Positions 10,819-19,890 of a stretch of DNA of 20,342 nt are shown piece after piece (position 1 is the stretch's first letter; every line of letters starts with the position of its first letter). The stretch covers positions 1 through 20,342 of the IMG/VR virus record IMGVR_UViG_3300045456_000003; one strand, given 5' to 3'. This DNA is from a virus. The notes beneath the pieces were generated by a model, which saw only the letters and a list, made by a program, of their open reading frames with translations, did no database searches and was not told the DNA's origin. Both the position numbers and the translations under genes were made by a program.

Positions 10819-12051
10819 TTATCCTGGTAGTGCTAACAAACGGCCACTCTTATCTCGAATGAACTCAGAAATCTGGACTTGAGTCTTTTCCTTGCCTTCT
10901 AGCAAGGAACTAGTAGTCTCTTCTACCGCTGACTCAGACACTGACTGCGGCGGAGCTTGTAGCTTAGGCTGTGTTTCGGAGACTTGCTGTTGAACAGGGC
11001 TAGCTTTAGCATTGACCACACCGGGTGACACAGTTCCTTTAGGCGGAGATACTGAGCTTGAACCAACTGGAGTAACGACAGACGCTTGGGTTGATGAGAC
11101 TGACCTGTTCTGCGCTGCTGTGTAGTAAGAGGTAATGCGTCCTGACACCTTAGCGAATGTGTCAGCTAAGCTAAGTTCTTTCCCATTCTCATAGAAGACG
11201 TTCTTGTTAGCTTGAGCCGCACGTGGGAACATAGAAGCAGCGCTAGCGTTTGGGTCTTTGTTCATAGCTCGTATGAACTTGATAGCTCCAGTAGGACCCA
11301 AGAAGTAAGCTAAGTAGACTTCTCCTATAGAAGGCTCTTTTCCAAGAGCCGTCTTCAAGGTGCGTATGAGTCTTCCCAAGTACATAGCAGCAACTGTTGC
11401 AGCCTTCTCAGGGTCTTCTCTATCTTGCAAAGAGTAGCCTAGCTCTGGAAACACTTTCTTGACTAGCCACTTCCATGTGCTTGGTATGAACTGAAAGAGG
11501 CCTACTGCGTTAGAAGTAGACGCTTTAACTCCTGGTCTAAACGAAGACTCTGAACCAGCAAGAGCGTACAGCATTGAGTACTGAACGTTCTTAGTAGCTG
11601 CGACTTTCCTGAGTACGTTGTCTATTTGTTCTGTTGGAGTAGCTAGAGACTTGTCTATCACCACAGGAGAGGTTACACCCTTATTCATTAGCCTTGTTAT
11701 CTCTGTCGTGTCTTCTCGGTAGGGTTCTAGAGCAACTTCAGACGTAGCAGGTGCTTCTGTCTGGAACATCTCTTTGAAGAACGAGCTGATTCGAGAACCC
11801 CAGGGCTCTTCGTCTACTTTAGTCTCTGCTACTGATTCTTCTACTTCCTTTAGTACCTTCTCACCTTCGTCTTTAGTCTCTAGCGCGTTCTTGATGAGAA
11901 AATACAGAACAGGGCCAGACGCTAGTCCAACTAACGTAGGCCCTGCAAACATAGCGTTTCGTCTTTTTCGGCGTCTAGACACTAGTGCCTGGACTGACCT
12001 ATTGTCTGCTTGCATGACCTCCAGAAGTACTTCTGCGGTCGAAACTGTCAT
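10819..12051 (-). CDS. Membrane-anchored lytic transglycosylase (GH23/SLT)
   Basis: A 410-residue protein. Residues 24-32 are strongly basic (SRRRKRRN), followed by a predicted membrane segment of about 20 residues (34-55). The transglycosylase domain spans about 140-310: YALAGSESSF with catalytic glutamate E168, NAVGLFQFIPSTW (181-193), and AYFLGPTGA (248-256), in the order typical of Slt/GH23 enzymes that cleave the MurNAc-GlcNAc bond with 1,6-anhydro product. The final 100 residues are a serine/proline/glutamine-rich linker. It overlaps the tape measure by ATGA at 12048-12051, with GGAG 7 bases upstream. With a hydrolase in the tape measure as well, it probably cuts the wall during DNA entry; a positively charged anchor before the membrane segment suggests insertion in a bacterial membrane. 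A host-lysis role is less likely in this position. Confidence 0.85.
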   Translation of the reverse strand: MTVSTAEVLLEVMQADNRSVQALVSRRRKRRNAMFAGPTLVGLASGPVLYFLIKNALETKDEGEKVLKEVEESVAETKVDEEPWGSRISSFFKEMFQTEAPATSEVALEPYREDTTEITRLMNKGVTSPVVIDKSLATPTEQIDNVLRKVAATKNVQYSMLYALAGSESSFRPGVKASTSNAVGLFQFIPSTWKWLVKKVFPELGYSLQDREDPEKAATVAAMYLGRLIRTLKTALGKEPSIGEVYLAYFLGPTGAIKFIRAMNKDPNASAASMFPRAAQANKNVFYENGKELSLADTFAKVSGRITSYYTAAQNRSVSSTQASVVTPVGSSSVSPPKGTVSPGVVNAKASPVQQQVSETQPKLQAPPQSVSESAVEETTSSLLEGKEKTQVQISEFIRDKSGRLLALPG

Positions 12052-14177
12052 GCGGCTACTCCAATATTCATCGCCAGCATTAGACCATCAGACATGTGGT
12101 AAGTTGGTATGTCTGAGACGCTTACTTTTGTTGATGGTTGCATTGTTCCACCTCCTTTAGCTGAAGCAGCACTACCTACGGTGTTAGCAGCAGACGTCGG
12201 AGTAGAACTAGGAACTGACGAAGCAGGAGTGATGTCTTGAGACACAGGAGAGGCCTTAGCACCTTGATTAACAGGTCCATCAGCTGAGTATATACCTGCC
12301 TTAGCAGCCGCTAAGGTCATACCTGCAGGTTGAATGTGCCAAGGCTCTTTTGAGATCGGTCTAGAGAACCCGTATTTGTTCAGTAATCCTAGCTTTGCGA
12401 GTTCATTGCCTTGTGCAGAGTTAGTGTCAAAAGCAAAGCCGTACTCGTGTAGTGATCTGCCAGGAGGTGCAGCTTGACCCTTCGGTAGTGTCCTATAGAG
12501 ATGTGCTTGATGTTCTGGCGACCTGTAAGCGCTGTTGATGTTCAAACGCTTTCCTGTCAGCTGGTAGTATTCTTGGGCCATTCCTACCATGTTCTTCTGC
12601 ATCTCAGGATTTAGTCCGTCAACGTTTACGTTTCCGCTCTTGTTGAACAGAGAACCCATCCAGTCTGAGACGCGCTCACTTACTGACTTAGGTTTAGGCA
12701 TGCCTGGATTGACAAACCCTCGACCACCACCTGCACCACCTAATGACGTAGCTGTAGAAGGGGCTACGTTACTGATTCCTACTCCAACAGCTTGAGACGC
12801 AGAAGACACAGCACCTGAAGCAGACTTCATCACACTGCCAGCAACGTCTTTACCAGACGATATCCAGCTACTAGCTCTGTCAATGGCTGCGTTCTTTGCT
12901 CTACCAATTGCGTCTACTGCGCTTTGGTATGTGTCTTGCCCCTTCTTAAGAGCATCGTCTATTGATTGTTGAAGGCCTGTTCTTCCTGTGTTTGGATCTT
13001 TCAGGAAGAAGTAGTCAATCGCTTTAGACAAGGGCTTCTCAATGAAGGAGTAGATCTTGTCTCCAATGAACTTTCCTCCTTGGAAGGCTCCCCACAAAGC
13101 ACCTAGAGGGCCTAAGATTCTCGCAGCTCCCTTTAGCAGTCCTGCTAAGATAGGCAAGCCTTTACCAAAGATGCCAGTGAACTTTCCAAAGAGCCCTCTT
13201 ATCAAACCACCTGCACCAAAGAAGCTGCCTAGAGTGCTTAATATGCTTCCAAGCATTGAAGAGTCTTTGCTTGACCCTTTCTCCTGCTTGTCCATAGAAC
13301 GCATCATTCGTCTTTGGAACAAACGAGTGTGGGCTACGTACTCAGAGAATCTTTCGGCAATAGACTGGCTACTTGAACCTCCAGCAAGCATCTCCTCAGG
13401 AGACTTGCTAACAGCACGCATCGCCGCGATTGTCTTCCCAACGTACTTTGCGCCCCTGATACCTGCTCCAATACCAGCTGCCCCAAGACCTACGCCTCTA
13501 ATCAGGTTACCTACAGTGAGAGGGCCGAAGCCTAGTTTGTCAGCAACAGACATGCCCTTGTTCACAAACCAACGGGCAGCGCTTCTTCCTAGGCGACGAA
13601 TGTCTTCACGTTGTTCTTTAAGGAACCGGCGAGCTTCATCTTGGTGACGCAGGATCTTGTTGAGTATCTCATCTTGTCCATCGAAAGACTCAGCTAGGTC
13701 AGTTGGAAGATTTTCCAACTTTGCCTGAGCGTCTGCGACGTCTTTCAACATGGAGTTGATATCGTCTAAGGACTCTAGATTTTTAGTAGCTGTCAGCAGC
13801 TTTTCTAGCTGTCTCTCTGACGACATGAGGGTAGTCAATACGTCTTGCGAGAGGTCTTTCTTCAGCATCTGAGCACGGATAGCACTCAGCTTGAACAAGA
13901 TGTCGGCTTGTATTCTCTTAGAGTCTATGAGATTTTGAACTGACTTTTTACTCTCACGTTCAACTCTACGCAGTTCGGTCTTAGCTTCAGCAATAGACTT
14001 CAAGAGGATAGCGCGAGCTTCTCTCGAAAGACCCGGAGCTGTTAGCTGCCTGGTTAGTTGATTGAGGTTCTCGCGTGCAATCGAAAGAGGAGAGTTTAGA
14101 GACGCGAGCTCTTCAAAAGACCCACTCCACTTTCTGAATGGGTCCCGTAGACCTTCCTCTAGAGGTTTCTTAGCCAT
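12048..14177 (-). CDS. Tape measure protein with M15 peptidase domain
   Basis: A 709-residue protein. Residues 20-200 are long charged helices (coiled coil), followed by glycine/alanine-rich hydrophobic stretches at about 214-250 and 305-375, which in tape measures are thought to enter the host membrane. Residues 505-625 form a D-Ala-D-Ala carboxypeptidase/endolysin-like M15 domain: LNINSAYRS, SLHEYGFAFD with metal ligands H577 and D584, and EPWHIQ with catalytic E611 and ligand H614. Such peptidases cleave peptidoglycan stem peptides. The C-terminus is low-complexity. At about 1.5 angstroms per residue, 709 residues would span at most about 106 nm (inference), less if the peptidase is outside the helical span. 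The ribosome site is weak (AGG 11 bases or more away) and the ATG lies inside the end of the frameshift extension, pointing to coupled translation. Confidence 0.88.
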   Translation of the reverse strand: MAKKPLEEGLRDPFRKWSGSFEELASLNSPLSIARENLNQLTRQLTAPGLSREARAILLKSIAEAKTELRRVERESKKSVQNLIDSKRIQADILFKLSAIRAQMLKKDLSQDVLTTLMSSERQLEKLLTATKNLESLDDINSMLKDVADAQAKLENLPTDLAESFDGQDEILNKILRHQDEARRFLKEQREDIRRLGRSAARWFVNKGMSVADKLGFGPLTVGNLIRGVGLGAAGIGAGIRGAKYVGKTIAAMRAVSKSPEEMLAGGSSSQSIAERFSEYVAHTRLFQRRMMRSMDKQEKGSSKDSSMLGSILSTLGSFFGAGGLIRGLFGKFTGIFGKGLPILAGLLKGAARILGPLGALWGAFQGGKFIGDKIYSFIEKPLSKAIDYFFLKDPNTGRTGLQQSIDDALKKGQDTYQSAVDAIGRAKNAAIDRASSWISSGKDVAGSVMKSASGAVSSASQAVGVGISNVAPSTATSLGGAGGGRGFVNPGMPKPKSVSERVSDWMGSLFNKSGNVNVDGLNPEMQKNMVGMAQEYYQLTGKRLNINSAYRSPEHQAHLYRTLPKGQAAPPGRSLHEYGFAFDTNSAQGNELAKLGLLNKYGFSRPISKEPWHIQPAGMTLAAAKAGIYSADGPVNQGAKASPVSQDITPASSVPSSTPTSAANTVGSAASAKGGGTMQPSTKVSVSDIPTYHMSDGLMLAMNIGVAA

Positions 14178-14391
14178 AAGCTGTTCTACCTACTTGTTGG
14201 AGACCTTTTGCTTGTGCGTTTGCATTCTTAACAAACCGCGCTTCAACTTTGTCTGATAGGTACATCAACATCCGTAACTCCAAGGACATTGGAAGAAGGA
14301 CACCTGTCTCTACCATGACTTTGTCTATGCGGTTTAGCAAGTTCTCTTCGTCAACGTAATTGAAGAAACGTGAGCGCGTCGAACGAGATAT
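14170..14391 (-). CDS. Probable +1 frameshift extension of the tail assembly chaperone
   Basis: The +1 frame relative to the chaperone is open from 14391 to a TAA at 14170-14172, filling the gap before the tape measure. If the shift occurs at UUU-C (14368-14365), it adds 64 residues, giving about 375 in total. The added part begins FNYVDEENLLNRIDKV and continues through LLPMSLELRML to a basic, alanine-rich end. It looks like real protein: helical, no rare residues, and ending in an 8-base overlap with the tape-measure ATG (ATGGCTAA). It lacks a convincing start of its own; the first ATG (about 48 residues from the end) has no Shine-Dalgarno sequence. This arrangement matches the G/GT-type chaperone pair that precedes tape measures. 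A sequencing indel is the main alternative. Confidence 0.65.
   Translation of the reverse strand: MSRSTRSRFFNYVDEENLLNRIDKVMVETGVLLPMSLELRMLMYLSDKVEARFVKNANAQAKGLQQVGRTAYG
14350..14368 (-). promoter_or_regulatory. Candidate +1 frameshift sites in chaperone mRNA
   Basis: The shift must happen before the zero-frame UGA (14353-14351) and after the +1-frame UGA at 14394-14392. Two candidates lie in this window. One is UUU-C at 14368-14365, where the phenylalanine tRNA can re-pair from UUU to UUC. The other is CGU-UGA-C at 14356-14350, which resembles the prfB recoding site in having a UGA followed by C; however, the tRNA would re-pair poorly on GUU. I see no prfB-like Shine-Dalgarno stimulator just upstream. 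The UUU-C site fits re-pairing best. Confidence 0.4.
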
Positions 14392-15298
14392 TCACTCTCG
14401 TAGACGCGCCACACTCCTTGCATCGAATATTAGCAAACTCACTGACGCCGTAGTCAGTGACGTCTTGACTGTATGCTTCAAGCATTGCCAAGTCGTCTGT
14501 GCTCATCTGCTCGACAATAGAGCAGCGTTCTTTGAGGGTAGTGCGTCCTGGAAGAGGCTTAAGGAAAGCTGCTCGTCCAGCTAGCCAGCTAAACTCAGGT
14601 GCCCCATCTTCAGACTCAATGACGTATTCAGCTACTTCAACTACGTCTCGCATAGTCTCAAAGCCTAACTGATAGCGTTCATCTAGCTCTTTGTATGGAG
14701 TAAGGTCTAGCGTCTTCAGATTCTTAGTCTCTAAGGTTGTGTTGTTCAACAACTCCTTCATGTGAAGCGTCTCTTTTTCTTTCTTGACGATGTTACCTGT
14801 CCCGTCGTCTACGCCTTCAGTCACTTGAAGGTTGTGTGTCAGGTCCTGACAGTACGCTTCAATCATCATTGGATTCTTAGGGAACGAGTTCACCCGATGC
14901 CAATACATCAGGTAGTAAAAGTCCCCAGGTTGTAGATCGAAGGCCGACACACCGTCGCCTAGAGTAGAGCTGATAGCTTCTACAATGTACTTCAACCGCT
15001 CTTCCTTAAACGCTCTATTGAACTTTGCAATGTGAAGACCTCTTAGCGGTGACACTGAGAGAGTCTTGAAAGGATAGAGTTGAAAGTTCGAAGGTAGGTC
15101 AACAGAGAAGAACTCTGCGCTCGTCTCACTAGTAGGCTTTTGGGAGTGGTAGTCAGGGTGACTGGGAGGTAAACTAGACTGAGTAGGCCTCGAAGGTTGA
15201 GCTTGAGGACGCTTGAACTCAAAAGACTGAGTGGATACGGTTTCAATGACCTTAGGGGCACCGTTTCCAGCTCTTTTTGAAGGAGATGGTATTTGCAT
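14351..15298 (-). CDS. Tail assembly chaperone / gp26-like baseplate protein
   Basis: A 315-residue zero-frame product located between the tube genes and the tape measure, the normal slot of tail assembly chaperones. The first 80 residues are proline/serine-rich and probably flexible. Residues 80-150 hold FQLYPFKTLSVSPLRGLHIA, a helical stretch and GDFYYLMYWHRVNSFP, which resembles the core of T4 gp26/gp51-type baseplate-assembly proteins found in many large phages. A Cys-x-x-Cys pair (C293, C296, CKECG) lies near the end, as in the zinc-knuckle tails of that group, and the zero frame stops only 19 residues later. The extension at 14170-14391 would complete it. ATG at 15298 has GAGGT 8 bases upstream. 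Chaperones of this kind coat the tape measure before tube polymerisation; naming it a chaperone rests on position and the frameshift. Confidence 0.68.
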   Translation of the reverse strand: MQIPSPSKRAGNGAPKVIETVSTQSFEFKRPQAQPSRPTQSSLPPSHPDYHSQKPTSETSAEFFSVDLPSNFQLYPFKTLSVSPLRGLHIAKFNRAFKEERLKYIVEAISSTLGDGVSAFDLQPGDFYYLMYWHRVNSFPKNPMMIEAYCQDLTHNLQVTEGVDDGTGNIVKKEKETLHMKELLNNTTLETKNLKTLDLTPYKELDERYQLGFETMRDVVEVAEYVIESEDGAPEFSWLAGRAAFLKPLPGRTTLKERCSIVEQMSTDDLAMLEAYSQDVTDYGVSEFANIRCKECGASTRVNISFDALTFLQLR

Positions 15299-15319: not shown

Positions 15320-16102
15320 TTACCTAGCTAGCAGCGCTGTTGCCGTCGAGAAAACGTCCGGGAACGCTGAAGGTAACCTAGAAAGTGAAGCAGGGAAGCC
15401 TCTGCCTATGTTGTTCACTACGGATGGTATTTGACCCGGAGAGAACTTGCCAAACTTGAGTCTTACTTCGTCAACACTGAAGGTAACATTTGGATTCACG
15501 CGTCCTGTGTTACCTGAAGTGACCGTGACATTGTCTATGTTCTGAGGCCAGCAGCCTGTGTACTCATAGATCATCACAGTCAGCTGTGCTGAATCTAGGG
15601 TGACGATGGTGATTGGTTGTTTGTATTCTCTTGGATGGTTGTAAAGACCTGTATCTCTGTCTATGATCATAGACTGCCATGCATACAGGTAGTTCATCGC
15701 CTTTCCATCAACGTCCTCATACAACTTGATCGATAGCGTATTTAAGTTGTAGTGGTTAGGAAAGTGAAAGTTCTTACCTGCTCTATAGACAGACGTCTGA
15801 TCAAATTCTACGTTTGGTAGAACCACCTCTTCAACGTAAGACCAAGGAAGTACAGTGTCTGCGTTGATTATTGGAAGGTCACAATACCAGTAGATGTCTA
15901 ACAGAGGGTCAGGCCGCGCATTTGCCGCCGCTAGCCAATCTCGAGGCCCAGGTGGATTCACAGGGCCAAACGAAGGATTAGCAGCAGAGTTAGCAACACG
16001 GCGGGCAAGTCGCTCTGCCAAATCGACAAAGCTACCTACCCGCCCGCTGAGTCTCTGCTTTGCTAAACCAGCAGCGGCTCCTAACACATTTGCTAGGGCC
16101 AC
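15320..16102 (-). CDS. Second tail-tube-fold protein (tube paralogue)
   Basis: A 260-residue protein starting with GTG at 16102; the preceding TAAGGAG, 7 bases upstream, overlaps the stop of the tube gene. The first 45 residues are alanine/arginine-rich and helical. From residue 60, the PDPLLDIYWYCDLP motif matches PDPLFTYNWDLIIP at the start of the 168-residue tube protein. The later strands (VLPNVEFDQTSVYRAGKNFHFP, LNTLSIKLYEDVDGKAMNYLYAWQSMI, VTFSVDEVRLKFGKF) follow the gp19-like tube order, with the LYEDxxxxxxNYLYAW helix typical of the family. The protein is about 90 residues longer than the tube, including the N-terminal arm and a C-terminal tail. It may cap or start the tube, or form a second tube type; which of these is unknown. 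Confidence 0.7.
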   Translation of the reverse strand: MALANVLGAAAGLAKQRLSGRVGSFVDLAERLARRVANSAANPSFGPVNPPGPRDWLAAANARPDPLLDIYWYCDLPIINADTVLPWSYVEEVVLPNVEFDQTSVYRAGKNFHFPNHYNLNTLSIKLYEDVDGKAMNYLYAWQSMIIDRDTGLYNHPREYKQPITIVTLDSAQLTVMIYEYTGCWPQNIDNVTVTSGNTGRVNPNVTFSVDEVRLKFGKFSPGQIPSVVNNIGRGFPASLSRLPSAFPDVFSTATALLAR

Positions 16103-16112
16103 TACTTACTCC

Positions 16113-16619
16113 TTAGTTAGTCTCAACCAGGTAGTCGTATGAGAACGTCACGCTAGTCTGAACAGCACCAGAAGCACGATCCAGAGGCGAGTCATCAAAC
16201 GTTTCTACCCAAGCACCAACAAGCTGAATCCGTTTCACTTCCAGTGGAATGTCGTCGTATAGGACTAGTTCAATGGTCGTAGAATAGATGTCTTTGTAGG
16301 TGCCAGTGTTTAGAGTGTTGTCTCGTGCAATGCGTTGCCAACGGCGAAGCATGTCACGAGTTCCAACGTCTCTTGTTTCGTGTAGTGTGCATGCGAAGCT
16401 GTGAGAGAAGTTCTCACGACCTGCATAACGAAGCTCTACTGGTCCTAAGTTTACCGGCACCTGCTCAAGCAACGAACCAGGGATGCTGGCTGATACTGCT
16501 TTGTAGGTGAAGGTACGTGTGTTAGGCGTACCAGGCATGACTGGGATGATCAGATCCCAGTTGTAGGTAAACAAAGGATCTGGCAGAGAACGGACGTCTT
16601 GCAAGGAAGTTCTGGACAT
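16113..16619 (-). CDS. Tail tube protein (gp19-like)
   Basis: A 168-residue protein, the usual length for T4 gp19-like inner tube subunits. Visible features: LPDPLFTYNWDLIIPVMPG at the start, FTYKAVSASIPGSLLEQVPV, ELRYAGRENFSHSFACTLHE, a helix MLRRWQRIARDN, the late strand TTIELVLYDD, and a final FSYDYLVE strand. This is the tube/Hcp-type order: beta-sandwich, one helix against it, then the closing strands. ATG at 16619 is preceded by AGGAG 8 bases upstream, immediately after the homing-endonuclease stop. Sheath and tube are normally neighbours, so the endonuclease gene looks like an insertion. A short inverted repeat (AGGAG-CCT-CTCCT) covers this ribosome site. Confidence 0.88.
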   Translation of the reverse strand: MSRTSLQDVRSLPDPLFTYNWDLIIPVMPGTPNTRTFTYKAVSASIPGSLLEQVPVNLGPVELRYAGRENFSHSFACTLHETRDVGTRDMLRRWQRIARDNTLNTGTYKDIYSTTIELVLYDDIPLEVKRIQLVGAWVETFDDSPLDRASGAVQTSVTFSYDYLVETN

Positions 16620-16634: not shown

Positions 16635-17888
16635 TCAGTTAGTAATCAGTTGGGTTAGCTTAGCTTTCGACAAGCTGGGCCAGTCGGAGTCTAGCACGAT
16701 GCACGAGTCCGACTTTGGGTGATAGACGATGAACTTCAGTTTCACTCCTTGGGCGTTAGCGAGTCTTTGCAGACGCCTGTTGTCTTTTAGAAAGTCTGAG
16801 GTTCCAAGCTTTCCTATCAACGTGAAGGTGCTCTTCACTTCTACGTATGTGTCGTTGCTCTTCACGTAGAAGTCTGGTGTATACACACGCTTACCAAAGT
16901 GCAAGGACTCAAACTTTGAGTCGAACTGCCCGAGGACGTTATGCACACCGAAACGCTTTGCTAGCCTGGGCAACACAAATCGTTCGTAGCCTTGGCACTC
17001 AAACGTCTTACCTTGTACTGTGACTTCAGTTAGACGTTGAGCACCTCTAATGACTTTCAGCCTAATGTCCCTGCTGTGCATACACGTCTGAACACCGTAC
17101 CGGTCTAGCATTGTGCGCTCTGCTTTCTTGCGCACCGCTTTGGATTGCATTGCATAGTCTACACCAAACCTGCGTCGGTGCGTTGCTCTGACCTTAGCCT
17201 GAGCACCACGACCCCACGCAGCATTTGGGTGTCCGTACCTGTCTTGCAGTGTTGTTCGGTGCTTTGCCTTCACAGATTCCGATTGCGTCGGATAGTCTGT
17301 ACCGTACGTAGCCTTTGACGTGCTGCGTGTTTTGGCCAACCTGTCTTCTTTGTGTTCCCACGACTCTTTGGTAGACGCACTTAGCTTTGCTCGGACACTA
17401 TCAGATTTGACTGACCACTCAACACCGTACTTCTTCAAGTTGGTCTTGCGGCGTTTCCTAAGTATTTGTTCACGCGACTCACCTGAAAACACAGTAGCTA
17501 AAGCCTTCTGGTGCTTCCGCTTAATGGTGTCTGCGTGCATGGCGTTAGGCACACCATACTTCTCCAAGCAGGCTGCCTGCGTTCTACTCGAAATGACTTC
17601 GCCTGAAACACGTTTGCCTTTTGGCGTAGTCAAACACTCTGAGCACACAGCACTTGCACTAGGCAGAATTTTGTCCTTGCACGCCAAACACACGTGCTGC
17701 TGTGCGGCCATCTGAAGTGCGTGCCAGCCCGCTAGCTTGGGCACCATGCTGCGTTGCAGCTTGGCAAACAATTTGCCCTTACCTTTGTCTTCAGCGTGTT
17801 TGCCAAATTCCGGCACTATAAATCTGTTGTTTGGCTTGAATGACTTGAGTAGGCGAGCCACGTCCTTTGCATTCTTGTCGGTCCACAT
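16635..17888 (-). CDS. Homing-endonuclease-like protein: zinc ribbon, YG repeats, PD-(D/E)xK nuclease
   Basis: A 417-residue protein counted from ATG at 17888. GTG at 17897 is in frame but has no ribosome site; the ATG has AGGTGAT, a strong match to the 16S complement. A Cys-x-x-Cys pair at 67/70 and another at 82/85 suggest a zinc ribbon. Residues 108-286 hold six degenerate repeats with a (Y/F)G-x core at 111, 154, 195, 218, 241 and 264, each followed by a polar, basic helix. The C-terminal part (about 300-390) has E302, YTPDFYV with D339, and YVEVKS (E350, K352), the order of a PD-(D/E)xK active site. Such repeats followed by a nuclease occur in phage free-standing homing endonucleases; I infer site-specific cutting of related phage genomes. 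Its sampled GC is about 52%, above its neighbours. Confidence 0.75.
   Translation of the reverse strand: MWTDKNAKDVARLLKSFKPNNRFIVPEFGKHAEDKGKGKLFAKLQRSMVPKLAGWHALQMAAQQHVCLACKDKILPSASAVCSECLTTPKGKRVSGEVISSRTQAACLEKYGVPNAMHADTIKRKHQKALATVFSGESREQILRKRRKTNLKKYGVEWSVKSDSVRAKLSASTKESWEHKEDRLAKTRSTSKATYGTDYPTQSESVKAKHRTTLQDRYGHPNAAWGRGAQAKVRATHRRRFGVDYAMQSKAVRKKAERTMLDRYGVQTCMHSRDIRLKVIRGAQRLTEVTVQGKTFECQGYERFVLPRLAKRFGVHNVLGQFDSKFESLHFGKRVYTPDFYVKSNDTYVEVKSTFTLIGKLGTSDFLKDNRRLQRLANAQGVKLKFIVYHPKSDSCIVLDSDWPSLSKAKLTQLITN
17031..17567 (-). repeat. Six degenerate YG repeats within the endonuclease
   Basis: Six related units of about 22 residues sit in the middle of the homing-endonuclease-like protein. 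Each opens with a basic residue, then (Y/F)G-(V/T/H), a variable stretch, then S-x-x-(V/I)-x-x-K followed by a basic/threonine end; the fourth unit (RYGHPNAAW) is the most altered. The last three intervals are exactly 23 residues and the first two are 43 and 41. Repeats of this type probably contact DNA. Confidence 0.75.
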
Positions 17889-17945
17889 TAGTATCACCTG
17901 GTGTTGTTAATGCACCAATGAAACTAATGTGAACCAGACACCAGG
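17884..17945 (-). promoter_or_regulatory. Crossing inverted repeats over the endonuclease ribosome site and start codon
   Basis: Two perfect inverted repeats interleave. In mRNA sense, CCTGGTGT (17945-17938) pairs with ACACCAGG (17904-17897), which contains the AGG of the ribosome site; CACATTAGT (17931-17923) pairs with ACTAATGTG (17892-17884), which contains the ATG. The order A1-B1-A2-B2 would make either a pseudoknot-like fold or two mutually exclusive hairpins. Either state would hide part of the start region. A role in keeping endonuclease translation low is inferred; the intergenic stretch is 64 bases. Confidence 0.6.
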
Positions 17946-17959
17946 GTTAGTGTTAACCC
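17944..17959 (-). other. Stem-loop at the sheath stop codon
   Basis: GGGTTA-ACAC-TAACCC is a perfect 6-base-pair stem with a 4-base loop covering the last sheath codons and the TAA stop. No run of U follows, so it is not a convincing intrinsic terminator. An RNA stability or processing role, or chance, remains possible. Confidence 0.5.
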
Positions 17960-19890
17960 AAGTTTGCTACATTTATCTCAGAGAACGACACACCAGCCTT
18001 AGTGATGACGATGTCGACCTGAATCTCATGGACTGGAATCACAGGTGTGATGAAGATAGTCACGGTCAAGATTCCCAGGTTGTACTTAGAGACAGGATTG
18101 TTAGTCTCGTCCGAGATCACCTGGTAGTCTAGAATACCACGAGCGTCTTTCCAGAACTGAAGGTAGTCACTAGTTGAAGTAACTATCTGTCTACGCGTGA
18201 AGTCATCGTTTGGCTCATGCAACGAGTACATCAAGAAGTCTTTAACAGCACCCTTGATGACGTTCACCATACGACGTACTGACACCCAAGACAGAGCAGA
18301 TTGCTTAGCCTGTAGTGTAGTAGCTTCAAAGATCGACGTACCTTCACCTAGGAACCTACGAACATAGTTGACCTGAGCGTTGAACAGGTCAGTTCTTTGT
18401 TGTTCGTTATATTCGTATCTAAGTGCTAGAGCGTCAATCAAACCTCTGTTCAAACCTGCAGGCTGGAACTGAGGACCAGCTACTCTATCAGTACGAGCAA
18501 ATACAGCGGCTACCCAACCTGAAGGCGGAATGTAGAGCTTCTTGCCGTTGTAGGGGTCATCCTCAAACACGTCAGACGTATAGATTGCACCATACGAAGT
18601 ATTCGCGTTAAGAATAAGCTGGCGATACGTGATTGCATCTTGCGCACGCTGCATTAGTTGAGGAGTATCGAGGATAGCGAATGCATCTCCTCTACGCTCT
18701 GCAACTCGGAGCATTGTTTGCTGTACTGAAACGTCAGTGTAGCCTGCGTTGATCAAAATGTTCACTTGAGACTGTTCAGGGTCACCGAACTCACTTTCCC
18801 AAGCAATTGCGATCTGACCGTTTGTCGGAGCTGTACCGGAATCACCGCCAGTCAAGGCCACTCTAGACGTAGAGATTACCGCCGGTACAGGAACAATCAA
18901 CTGAGGCACATAAGACGCTACGTTGATGTAGTCCGACAGCGCATTAATTTGCTGCGTCGGTTCTAGTTGGCGGCCGTTACCGTCAGTGAAGTCTGTTAGA
19001 GTAGAAGGCCACTCTTCAACAGGCACACTTGTGCTCTGTTCCAAGTCAAACACACGAATGGTGAATTCGTTTGTCGGAGCAGGTAACAAGGTCGGGTTTG
19101 TGATAGGAGCAAAGTCTGTGTCAGGAACAGCAATGCCAGTATCAACCCAAGTTAGGGTTGTAGCACCGACAACAGCAAGCCGGAACACGTTACCGTTTAC
19201 TCTACCATACACGTAGTAGCCGCGAGCACCTGGAACAGCAGTCCAAGTGAGAGTTACCGTTGCTGTAGTAGTAGGACCACCAACAACAATAGTAGCTACT
19301 GACGAAGCTAGTGTCTCGCCAATTTCAGAGATGGCGCTAATACGGTACTCGTAAGTACCGTTGACTAGTGAACCACCTGTGTTAACTGACGACAGAGACG
19401 GCGCTGCAGGTGTTGACAGGTTCTGAGACGCAATCTGAATTGCCAGATTGTTGCCATAAGAACCAGGCCCCGACTTAGGAGTAATCAGCAGCAGAGGAAC
19501 TTCTGCGCCAGCTACGTAGTTGTCCCAATCTGGGTTGTCTACGTCGGGGACTCCGCCCGTGACACCTGCCAGAGAGGTCACGCCAAGTCCGCTGTCTTTC
19601 ATGACAAGACCGGACCATCTGTAGCCTGCCCCAAGCACACGAACGCACTCCAAGGAGCTCATTTCCTTGAGTGCGTCTAGAGCACAGTAATGACCGAACG
19701 ACAAAGAAGCGTCTGGAATTCCGTATTCGGCCAGGAACGCTTGGCTATCATTCACCTTGTATCTACCAGGACGCCCTTTTCTGGATACGAAAAGGATAGC
19801 GCCATTAGAAGACGAACGAGACCGGATTGTTTGTGATAGGTCAATTTCTCGGAATCGAACGTCTGCTGACTGCTGAGTTAAACTCGGCAT
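17953..19890 (-). CDS. Tail sheath protein with inserted Ig-like domain
   Basis: A 645-residue contractile sheath subunit. The N-terminus (residues 8-100) has VRFREIDLSQT and SNGAILFVSRKGRPG, then YGIPDASLSFGHYCALDALKE and VLGAGYRWSGLV; these are typical of sheath outer domains. GPGSYGNNLAIQI (141-153) and NEFTIRVFDL (274-283) are two strands that usually lie close together; here they flank an Ig/fibronectin-like domain (about 160-268). The C-terminal part carries ILDTPQ, YGAIYTSDVFEDDP, GPQFQPAGLNRGLI, YEYNEQQRTDLFNAQVN and VRRMVNVIKGAVKDF, a strong match to the conserved sheath C-terminus. ATG at 19890 is preceded by AGGAG with 7 bases spacing. The subunits form the helical contracting layer around the tube. 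Confidence 0.9.
   Translation of the reverse strand: MPSLTQQSADVRFREIDLSQTIRSRSSSNGAILFVSRKGRPGRYKVNDSQAFLAEYGIPDASLSFGHYCALDALKEMSSLECVRVLGAGYRWSGLVMKDSGLGVTSLAGVTGGVPDVDNPDWDNYVAGAEVPLLLITPKSGPGSYGNNLAIQIASQNLSTPAAPSLSSVNTGGSLVNGTYEYRISAISEIGETLASSVATIVVGGPTTTATVTLTWTAVPGARGYYVYGRVNGNVFRLAVVGATTLTWVDTGIAVPDTDFAPITNPTLLPAPTNEFTIRVFDLEQSTSVPVEEWPSTLTDFTDGNGRQLEPTQQINALSDYINVASYVPQLIVPVPAVISTSRVALTGGDSGTAPTNGQIAIAWESEFGDPEQSQVNILINAGYTDVSVQQTMLRVAERRGDAFAILDTPQLMQRAQDAITYRQLILNANTSYGAIYTSDVFEDDPYNGKKLYIPPSGWVAAVFARTDRVAGPQFQPAGLNRGLIDALALRYEYNEQQRTDLFNAQVNYVRRFLGEGTSIFEATTLQAKQSALSWVSVRRMVNVIKGAVKDFLMYSLHEPNDDFTRRQIVTSTSDYLQFWKDARGILDYQVISDETNNPVSKYNLGILTVTIFITPVIPVHEIQVDIVITKAGVSFSEINVANLG

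Follow-up and report, generated by a model that had tools for sequence, protein, structure and literature searches.

How does the tail assembly chaperone gene of a contractile-tailed virus end, and can one such gene encode two proteins? The window analysed here, the whole 20,342-base fragment of IMG/VR virus record IMGVR_UViG_3300045456_000003, carries a contractile-tail gene block on the minus strand, in which a chaperone-like open reading frame (ORF) stops shortly before a probable tape measure gene while a second, overlapping frame runs open through the gap. An initial annotation had proposed that a +1 frameshift at UUU-C joins the two frames into a short and long chaperone pair of the G/GT type. 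Our comparison with relatives supports this pair through conservation of the frame, the slip codon and purifying selection. With a probability of about 0.85, a single gene at this locus gives rise to a short and a long chaperone of the T4 gp26/gp51 kind through programmed +1 frameshifting at UUU-C, with a hairpin directly 5' of the site that re-forms as the ribosome moves on. The gp26/gp51 kinship, the -1 and two-gene relatives and the covarying 5' hairpin were not part of the initial annotation. All coordinates are collected in Table 1.

The chaperone stop comes 15 nucleotides (nt) after UUU-C, and the +1 frame overlaps the zero frame by 41 nt, which agrees with the overlap of about 13 codons first estimated. 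A one-base forward slip at this site gives a 375-residue product, the size anticipated, and the extension is predicted as two helices, as had also been suggested. Its stop lies within the start of the next gene (ATGGCTAA, 14177-14170), the ATG of the tape measure overlapping the stop codon. The open frame 14391-14170 was said to have no good start of its own: the sole start-like codon near the beginning of the extension is a TTG (14340) without a Shine-Dalgarno (SD) sequence, and start-like codons are absent there in five near siblings (L013-L017, of which L013 and L014 are almost identical). The codon that follows in the A site is CUU, no SD-like sequence precedes UUU in the window (GCGCTCACG), and G_UUU_CUU does not qualify as a canonical -1 heptamer of the form X_XXY_YYZ.

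Relatives were drawn from annotated phages and from IMG/VR scans. Once duplicates with the same 300 nt around the stop had been removed, 140 distinct loci were left, which are related to each other and hence not independent. The extension is in the +1 frame in 113 of these and in the -1 frame in 14 (six environmental loci and eight cultured T4-like phages), while 11 loci have two chaperone-like genes; the two unclassified loci, D504 (L116) and L054, stand outside the mode counts. L009, L041, L108 and the T4-like phages, on which the extension profile is weak or silent, were assigned by hand based on frame and position. Bacterial genomes scanned with the chaperone alignment yielded no prophage relatives, and the protein of phage PhiXhv-16 gave no match as an IMG/VR query.

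At the junction, all 113 +1 loci carry UUU in frame and then a pyrimidine (C in 111), and the candidate slip site first placed at 14368-14365 proved exact to the base. Outside the slip, UUU makes up only 35% of the Phe codons in the window's group and 68% in an aquatic group of +1 loci, so its constancy at the slip is not explained by codon usage (P about 10^-13 and 10^-18 for the two groups against each gene's own Phe usage, values overstated by the kinship of the loci). If the slip occurs there, the codon is read once, as Phe, and the protein thus gives no reason to prefer UUU over UUC. The check proposed at the outset, conservation of the +1 frame in relatives, turned out positive in these 113 distinct loci, and neither stops nor a shared ribosome site and start were found in the relatives' extensions. 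For the extension, the median ratio of nonsynonymous to synonymous substitution rates (dN/dS) is 0.50 among the diverged loci of the window's group and 0.16 among the aquatic loci, with 94% and 99% of informative pairs, respectively, falling below 1; on this measure, the extension is under purifying selection. The +1 carriers include the separately sequenced cultured phages Motura, BcepSauron, PhiXhv-16, QdP_Psa3 and phiXF1. A +1 extension at UUU-C was also seen in L099 (LR756508.1, a 484-kb uncultured phage) and L108 (Streptococcus phage vB_SagM-GXN1). In the aquatic group (L048-L220), the slip context is almost always UUU UUU CGU/CGC CCU UUC UUC UGA, after a near-invariant GGG codon.

Each of the 26 +1 loci in the window's group has a strong hairpin in the 54 nt that precede the slip (-18 to -31 kcal/mol), with a mean z of -4.4 compared to dinucleotide shuffles. 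No such structure is present 120 nt further upstream, and the 3' side of the slip shows no group-wide structure in +1 loci. In nearly all loci, 0-1 nt separate the base of the hairpin from the slip UUU, with weaker pairing in the outermost two to three pairs; in the window, the distance between core stem and UUU is 5 nt. For most loci, at most two other 54-nt stretches in about 5 kb are more stable than the hairpin, L013 and L046 being the exceptions. Across 23 aligned sequences and 15 tested pairs, 82% of cells are paired versus 37-54% when the arms are slid against each other. Both sides have changed in 12 of the 15 pairs, and 46 compensatory cells were counted versus 14.5 +/- 3.9 after shuffling. 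Third codon positions oppose third codon positions (GCG with GAC, GCA with GAU), so the pairs can change silently. Protein-preserving, within-column shuffles of synonymous codons gave 262 +/- 3 paired cells against the 284 observed, none of 2000 shuffles being as high, and the mean minimum free energy of -26.3 kcal/mol compares with -14.0 +/- 0.6 when the genes are recoded synonymously according to their own codon usage. Judged by these recodings, the hairpin is selected beyond protein coding. A covariance model of the hairpin scores 46-80 bits in +1 loci (66.5 bits by cmsearch in the window, which is itself among the model-building sequences) and locates the hairpin at the slip in two left-out +1 loci, L032 and L127. 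As candidate identities, a known RNA family was rejected since Rfam gave no match, and an intrinsic terminator since none was found at the hairpin.

The same extension domain follows a different signal in a minority of relatives. It lies in the -1 frame of L021, L028 and L036 behind U_UUU_UUC (profile E 9e-22, 4e-21 and 1.5e-30), and likewise in the -1 frame of L067, L083, L096, Syn9, P-SSM2, phiAS5, Yut3, KVP40 and others; a canonical -1 heptamer is present at the junction in L021, L028, L036 and the T4-like phages (U_UUU_UU). The two-gene homologues HRDY3 and PaBG encode paralogous proteins, the second with the C-terminal extension and the first ending in UUC UUC at the slip position, and T4 (outside the 140 loci) has the two genes gp26 and gp51. 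A quick tree, which has open forks and does not give the direction of the mode change, places L021 and L028 beside the +1 locus L018 and L036 inside the BcepSauron group, all within the +1 clade, and L067 and L083 beside the aquatic +1 clade. This nesting and placement indicate that the frameshift direction changed more than once in the family.

Absence of the hairpin tracks the mode: it is absent or weak in the nested -1 lineages and absent in the two-gene homologues. The 14 -1 loci, without such a hairpin, have a mean synonymous z of -0.07 (L021 -0.6, L028 0.0, L036 -1.7), and the two-gene homologues HRDY3 and PaBG, likewise without it, have z values of +0.7 and -1.1. The covariance model reaches 22 bits in L028 and 16 bits in L036 and does not match L021. 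Within the aquatic +1 group, a weaker stem occupies the same place (mean z -2.1 versus -0.2 at 120 nt upstream); it is an almost invariant CCCC/GGGG helix, and covariation therefore says little in this group. Unrelated sequences of QdP_Psa3 and phiXF1 also fold 5' of the slip, with z values of about -1.9 that are suggestive only. Some -1 loci (L021, L028, L109 and L115) are structured 3' of the slip instead (z -2 to -4), unlike the +1 loci. This 3' structure is possibly a -1 stimulator, in which case the two modes would have their structures on opposite sides.

The best reading of the short chaperone, judged by profile and predicted fold, is a protein of the T4 gp26/gp51 kind. The PF12322 profile (T4 gp26/gp51) matches it with E 3.7e-4 and 20.7 bits, against a curated cut-off of 24.5. 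Short form and extension were structure-predicted separately, and the AlphaFold2 model of the short form (predicted local distance difference test score of 82) matches annotated T4-like hub subunits and hub assembly chaperones with E values of about 4.6e-9 to 1e-5. Sequence and fold searches of the short form against the PDB gave no significant match and no solved relative; the HK97 chaperone 2OB9 appeared in the fold search with E 3.6. In the alignment, T4 gp26 ends at the equivalent FF and gp51 runs on beyond it; the extension aligns with the gp51 C-terminus, and the extension profile weakly matches the gp51-like extension of KVP40 (E 0.013). The Cys-x-x-Cys motif that was first pointed out near the zero-frame end is indeed there (C293 and C296), close relatives retain it, and it may form a metal knuckle with C150 and H155. 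The chaperone is located between the tube-like ORF upstream and the tape-measure-like ORF downstream, an order that relatives keep.

In the proposed mechanism, most ribosomes would end at 14351 and release the short form. A minority would slip one base forward, with the P-site tRNA-Phe re-pairing from UUU (14368-14366) to the better-paired UUC (14367-14365), and would read on into the helical 64-residue extension. The hairpin directly 5' of the slip would re-form on leaving the ribosome; its lower 3' arm would still be within the ribosome while UUU occupies the P site, and zipping would pull the mRNA one base forward and resist backward slip. The short form may then coat the tape measure and the extension recruit the tube protein, as in lambda G/GT. 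The sequences themselves show the conserved +1 frame, the slip codon, and the covarying hairpin with its absence from -1 and two-gene relatives; that ribosomes slip here, how often they do so, the pull by the stem and the role as a chaperone are inferred. In an E. coli 70S system, a stable refolding hairpin 5' of the shift site increased +1 and attenuated -1 frameshifting (Huang 2018, PMC6321510), and an upstream hairpin had the same effect in yeast and human cells (Cho 2013, PMC3639245). The effect scales with stability and closeness of the hairpin (PMC3639245, PMC6321510). For the 5' stem loop of T4 gene 60, zippering at the mRNA exit channel was proposed to propel the ribosome (PMC5009743). 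By analogy with these reporters, the phage data fit the prediction in both directions, with a hairpin at +1 sites and none at -1 sites. We consider it probable that the 5' hairpin is a natural, dedicated +1 stimulator and that its gain or loss, together with the slip codon, switches the chaperone between +1 and -1 in evolution.

Several points weigh against this account. Its support is comparative throughout, only three -1 lineages lie inside or beside +1 clades, and membership of the T4-like family draws on weak Pfam similarity and on fold similarity. The hairpin is weaker in L046 and L013, and a remnant of it persists in the -1 locus L036 (z -1.7). The hairpin effect in the 70S system was seen with a starved A site, mainly a stop codon without release factor RF2 (PMC6321510); the A-site CUU is neither a stop nor an obviously rare codon, so that a pause here has no evident cause. 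The hairpin might only slow ribosomes, protect the transcript or tune tape measure expression beside a genuine frameshift; a pausing or insulating role has been ascribed to upstream stems near other shift sites (PMC5009743). We regard this as unlikely, as the hairpin keeps a fixed position next to the slip where the mode is +1 and is weak or missing in -1 and two-gene loci that share the gene order, and neither a terminator nor an Rfam family was found there.

Alternatives to the ribosomal +1 shift itself fare worse against the same comparisons. The extension is annotated as a gene in several cultured relatives, for example as a 50-amino-acid ORF in BcepSauron and PhiXhv-16, and many relatives have an ATG, GTG or TTG near the junction, preceded by at least four SD-like bases in 10 of 26 loci of the window's group. 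The positions of these starts, however, vary from before to inside the conserved domain, the window offers only a TTG without SD and the five siblings offer nothing; a separate gene leaves the UUU conservation and the hairpin unexplained, and the same domain abuts a -1 heptamer in the -1 relatives. An own start is rejected for the window and, less firmly, for every relative, which makes a separate small gene very improbable. Polymerase slippage could be considered because of the T runs (T6 or more) at the site in the aquatic group and in -1 loci, but in the window and in most members of its group the run is just UUU between G and C, shorter than transcriptional slippage is usually described to need, and we give this explanation hardly any weight. 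We are just as sceptical of a -2 shift, which reaches the same frame and which frame analysis by itself cannot separate from +1: UUU-C re-pairs perfectly one step forward while backward steps pair poorly in the window, and UUU-pyrimidine is a described +1 site, for example in influenza PA-X (PMC3498833). The frame break itself is all that speaks for a sequencing or assembly error or for a decaying remnant. The comparative data refute this reading, which has next to no chance of being right: the break recurs in 113 distinct, separately assembled loci, the separately sequenced cultured phages included, with the dN/dS values given above.

As in lambda-type G/GT (Xu, Hendrix and Duda 2004), a frameshift here would let one gene, placed directly ahead of the tape measure, produce a short and a long form, with the long form assumed to be the minority. 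Lambda G/GT differs in being unrelated in sequence and in shifting by -1, and we know of no 5' hairpin in systems of that type. Vladimirov, Gautam and Davidson (2022, Virology 566:9-15) reportedly identified gp26/gp51 as the chaperones, in short and long forms made by frameshift or from two genes, with frameshifting in several T4-like groups. The T4-like TAC-N/TAC-NC proteins are probably of the same kind and appear to have the same extension as those of the window, but T4 uses two genes, and Syn9, P-SSM2, KVP40, phiAS5 and the others checked shift by -1 at U_UUU_UU and have no 5' hairpin. Pakpunavirus relatives have a published -1 shift with a GTTTTT motif (PMC12846349), and a +1 shift is very likely in the chaperone of the archaeal myovirus HSTV-2 (PMC5009743). 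Other +1 sites are built differently: E. coli prfB (RF2) has CUU at a stop with an internal Shine-Dalgarno sequence and Listeria phage PSA has CCC before a stop or a 3' pseudoknot, in contrast to UUU-C with a 5' hairpin and no A-site stop in the window. Influenza PA-X (UCC_UUU_CGU; PMC3498833) shares the UUU-C slip, and even UUU_CGU/CGC with the aquatic relatives, on eukaryotic ribosomes and in an unrelated gene. The hairpins of Cho 2013 and Huang 2018 and the gene 60 stem loop resemble the window in that a stable stem abuts the shift site 5', with a forward pull or a backward block proposed. Those effects concern reporters or a 50-nt bypass, whereas the window's family has a natural covarying element, paired with an apparently productive +1 shift and missing where the shift is -1. 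To our knowledge, natural genes that use an upstream hairpin for a productive +1 shift are hardly documented. Short and long chaperones are known in T4-like phages; the +1 mode with a covarying 5' hairpin appears to be new in that it was not found in open-access text. A large phage family appears to use an upstream hairpin for +1, with nested -1 relatives lacking the hairpin and with two-gene relatives, and forms a natural experiment in which sister sequences address what sets frameshift direction.

In all these genomes, the extension is overlooked or wrongly annotated by gene-finding programs. The gp51 of cyanophages and marine vibriophages has been noted as truncated (Sullivan et al. 2010, PMC3037559); going by frame and position, it may be the frameshift-encoded end of a longer gp26 product, made by -1. 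The gp51 genes called truncated at NC_008296 6478-7391 (L106), NC_006883 6495-7390 (L109) and NC_005083 186612-187627 (L113) each follow gp26 directly in the -1 frame, and the junction reads U_UUU_UUC.

Table 1. Features of the chaperone locus and its tail gene block, in window coordinates
Feature	Position	Strand	Remarks
Sheath	17953-19890	-	Tail block
Tail tube-like protein, directly upstream of chaperone	15320-16102	-	phrog_45
Short chaperone (TAC-N, gp26-like), 315 amino acids, zero frame	14351-15298	-	Stop TGA 14353-14351; phrog_13792 E 1.4e-29
CxxC motif (C293, C296)	14411-14422	-	Near-invariant alignment columns in close relatives; codons overlap hairpin
5' RNA hairpin	14370-14414	-	-26.2 kcal/mol, synonymous-recoding z -5.9
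Hairpin outer pairs	14414-14412 with 14372-14370	-	
Hairpin core stem	14409-14403 with 14380-14374	-	
Hairpin apical stem	14401-14396 with 14388-14383	-	
Hairpin loop	14395-14389	-	
Slip site UUU-C	14365-14368	-	UUU in 113/113 +1 loci, then C in 111
+1-frame extension (TAC-C), 64 codons and stop TAA 14172-14170	14170-14364 (coding 14364-14173)	-	Frame open from 14391
Next gene downstream, probable tape measure protein with VanY/M15-type domain	12048-14177	-	phrog_16823 tape measure E 1e-9, phrog_13118 endolysin, PF02557

The tail block of the window also includes a baseplate wedge protein gene. A homing-endonuclease-like ORF (DUF7487; 16635-17897, minus strand) is located between the sheath and tube genes, and the adjacent minus-strand ORFs 15320-16102 and 16113-16619 both have tail tube family matches. 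Downstream, a gene with a lytic transglycosylase domain (10819-12051, minus strand) adjoins the probable tape measure gene with its VanY/M15-type peptidase domain, which would place two wall-degrading activities side by side.

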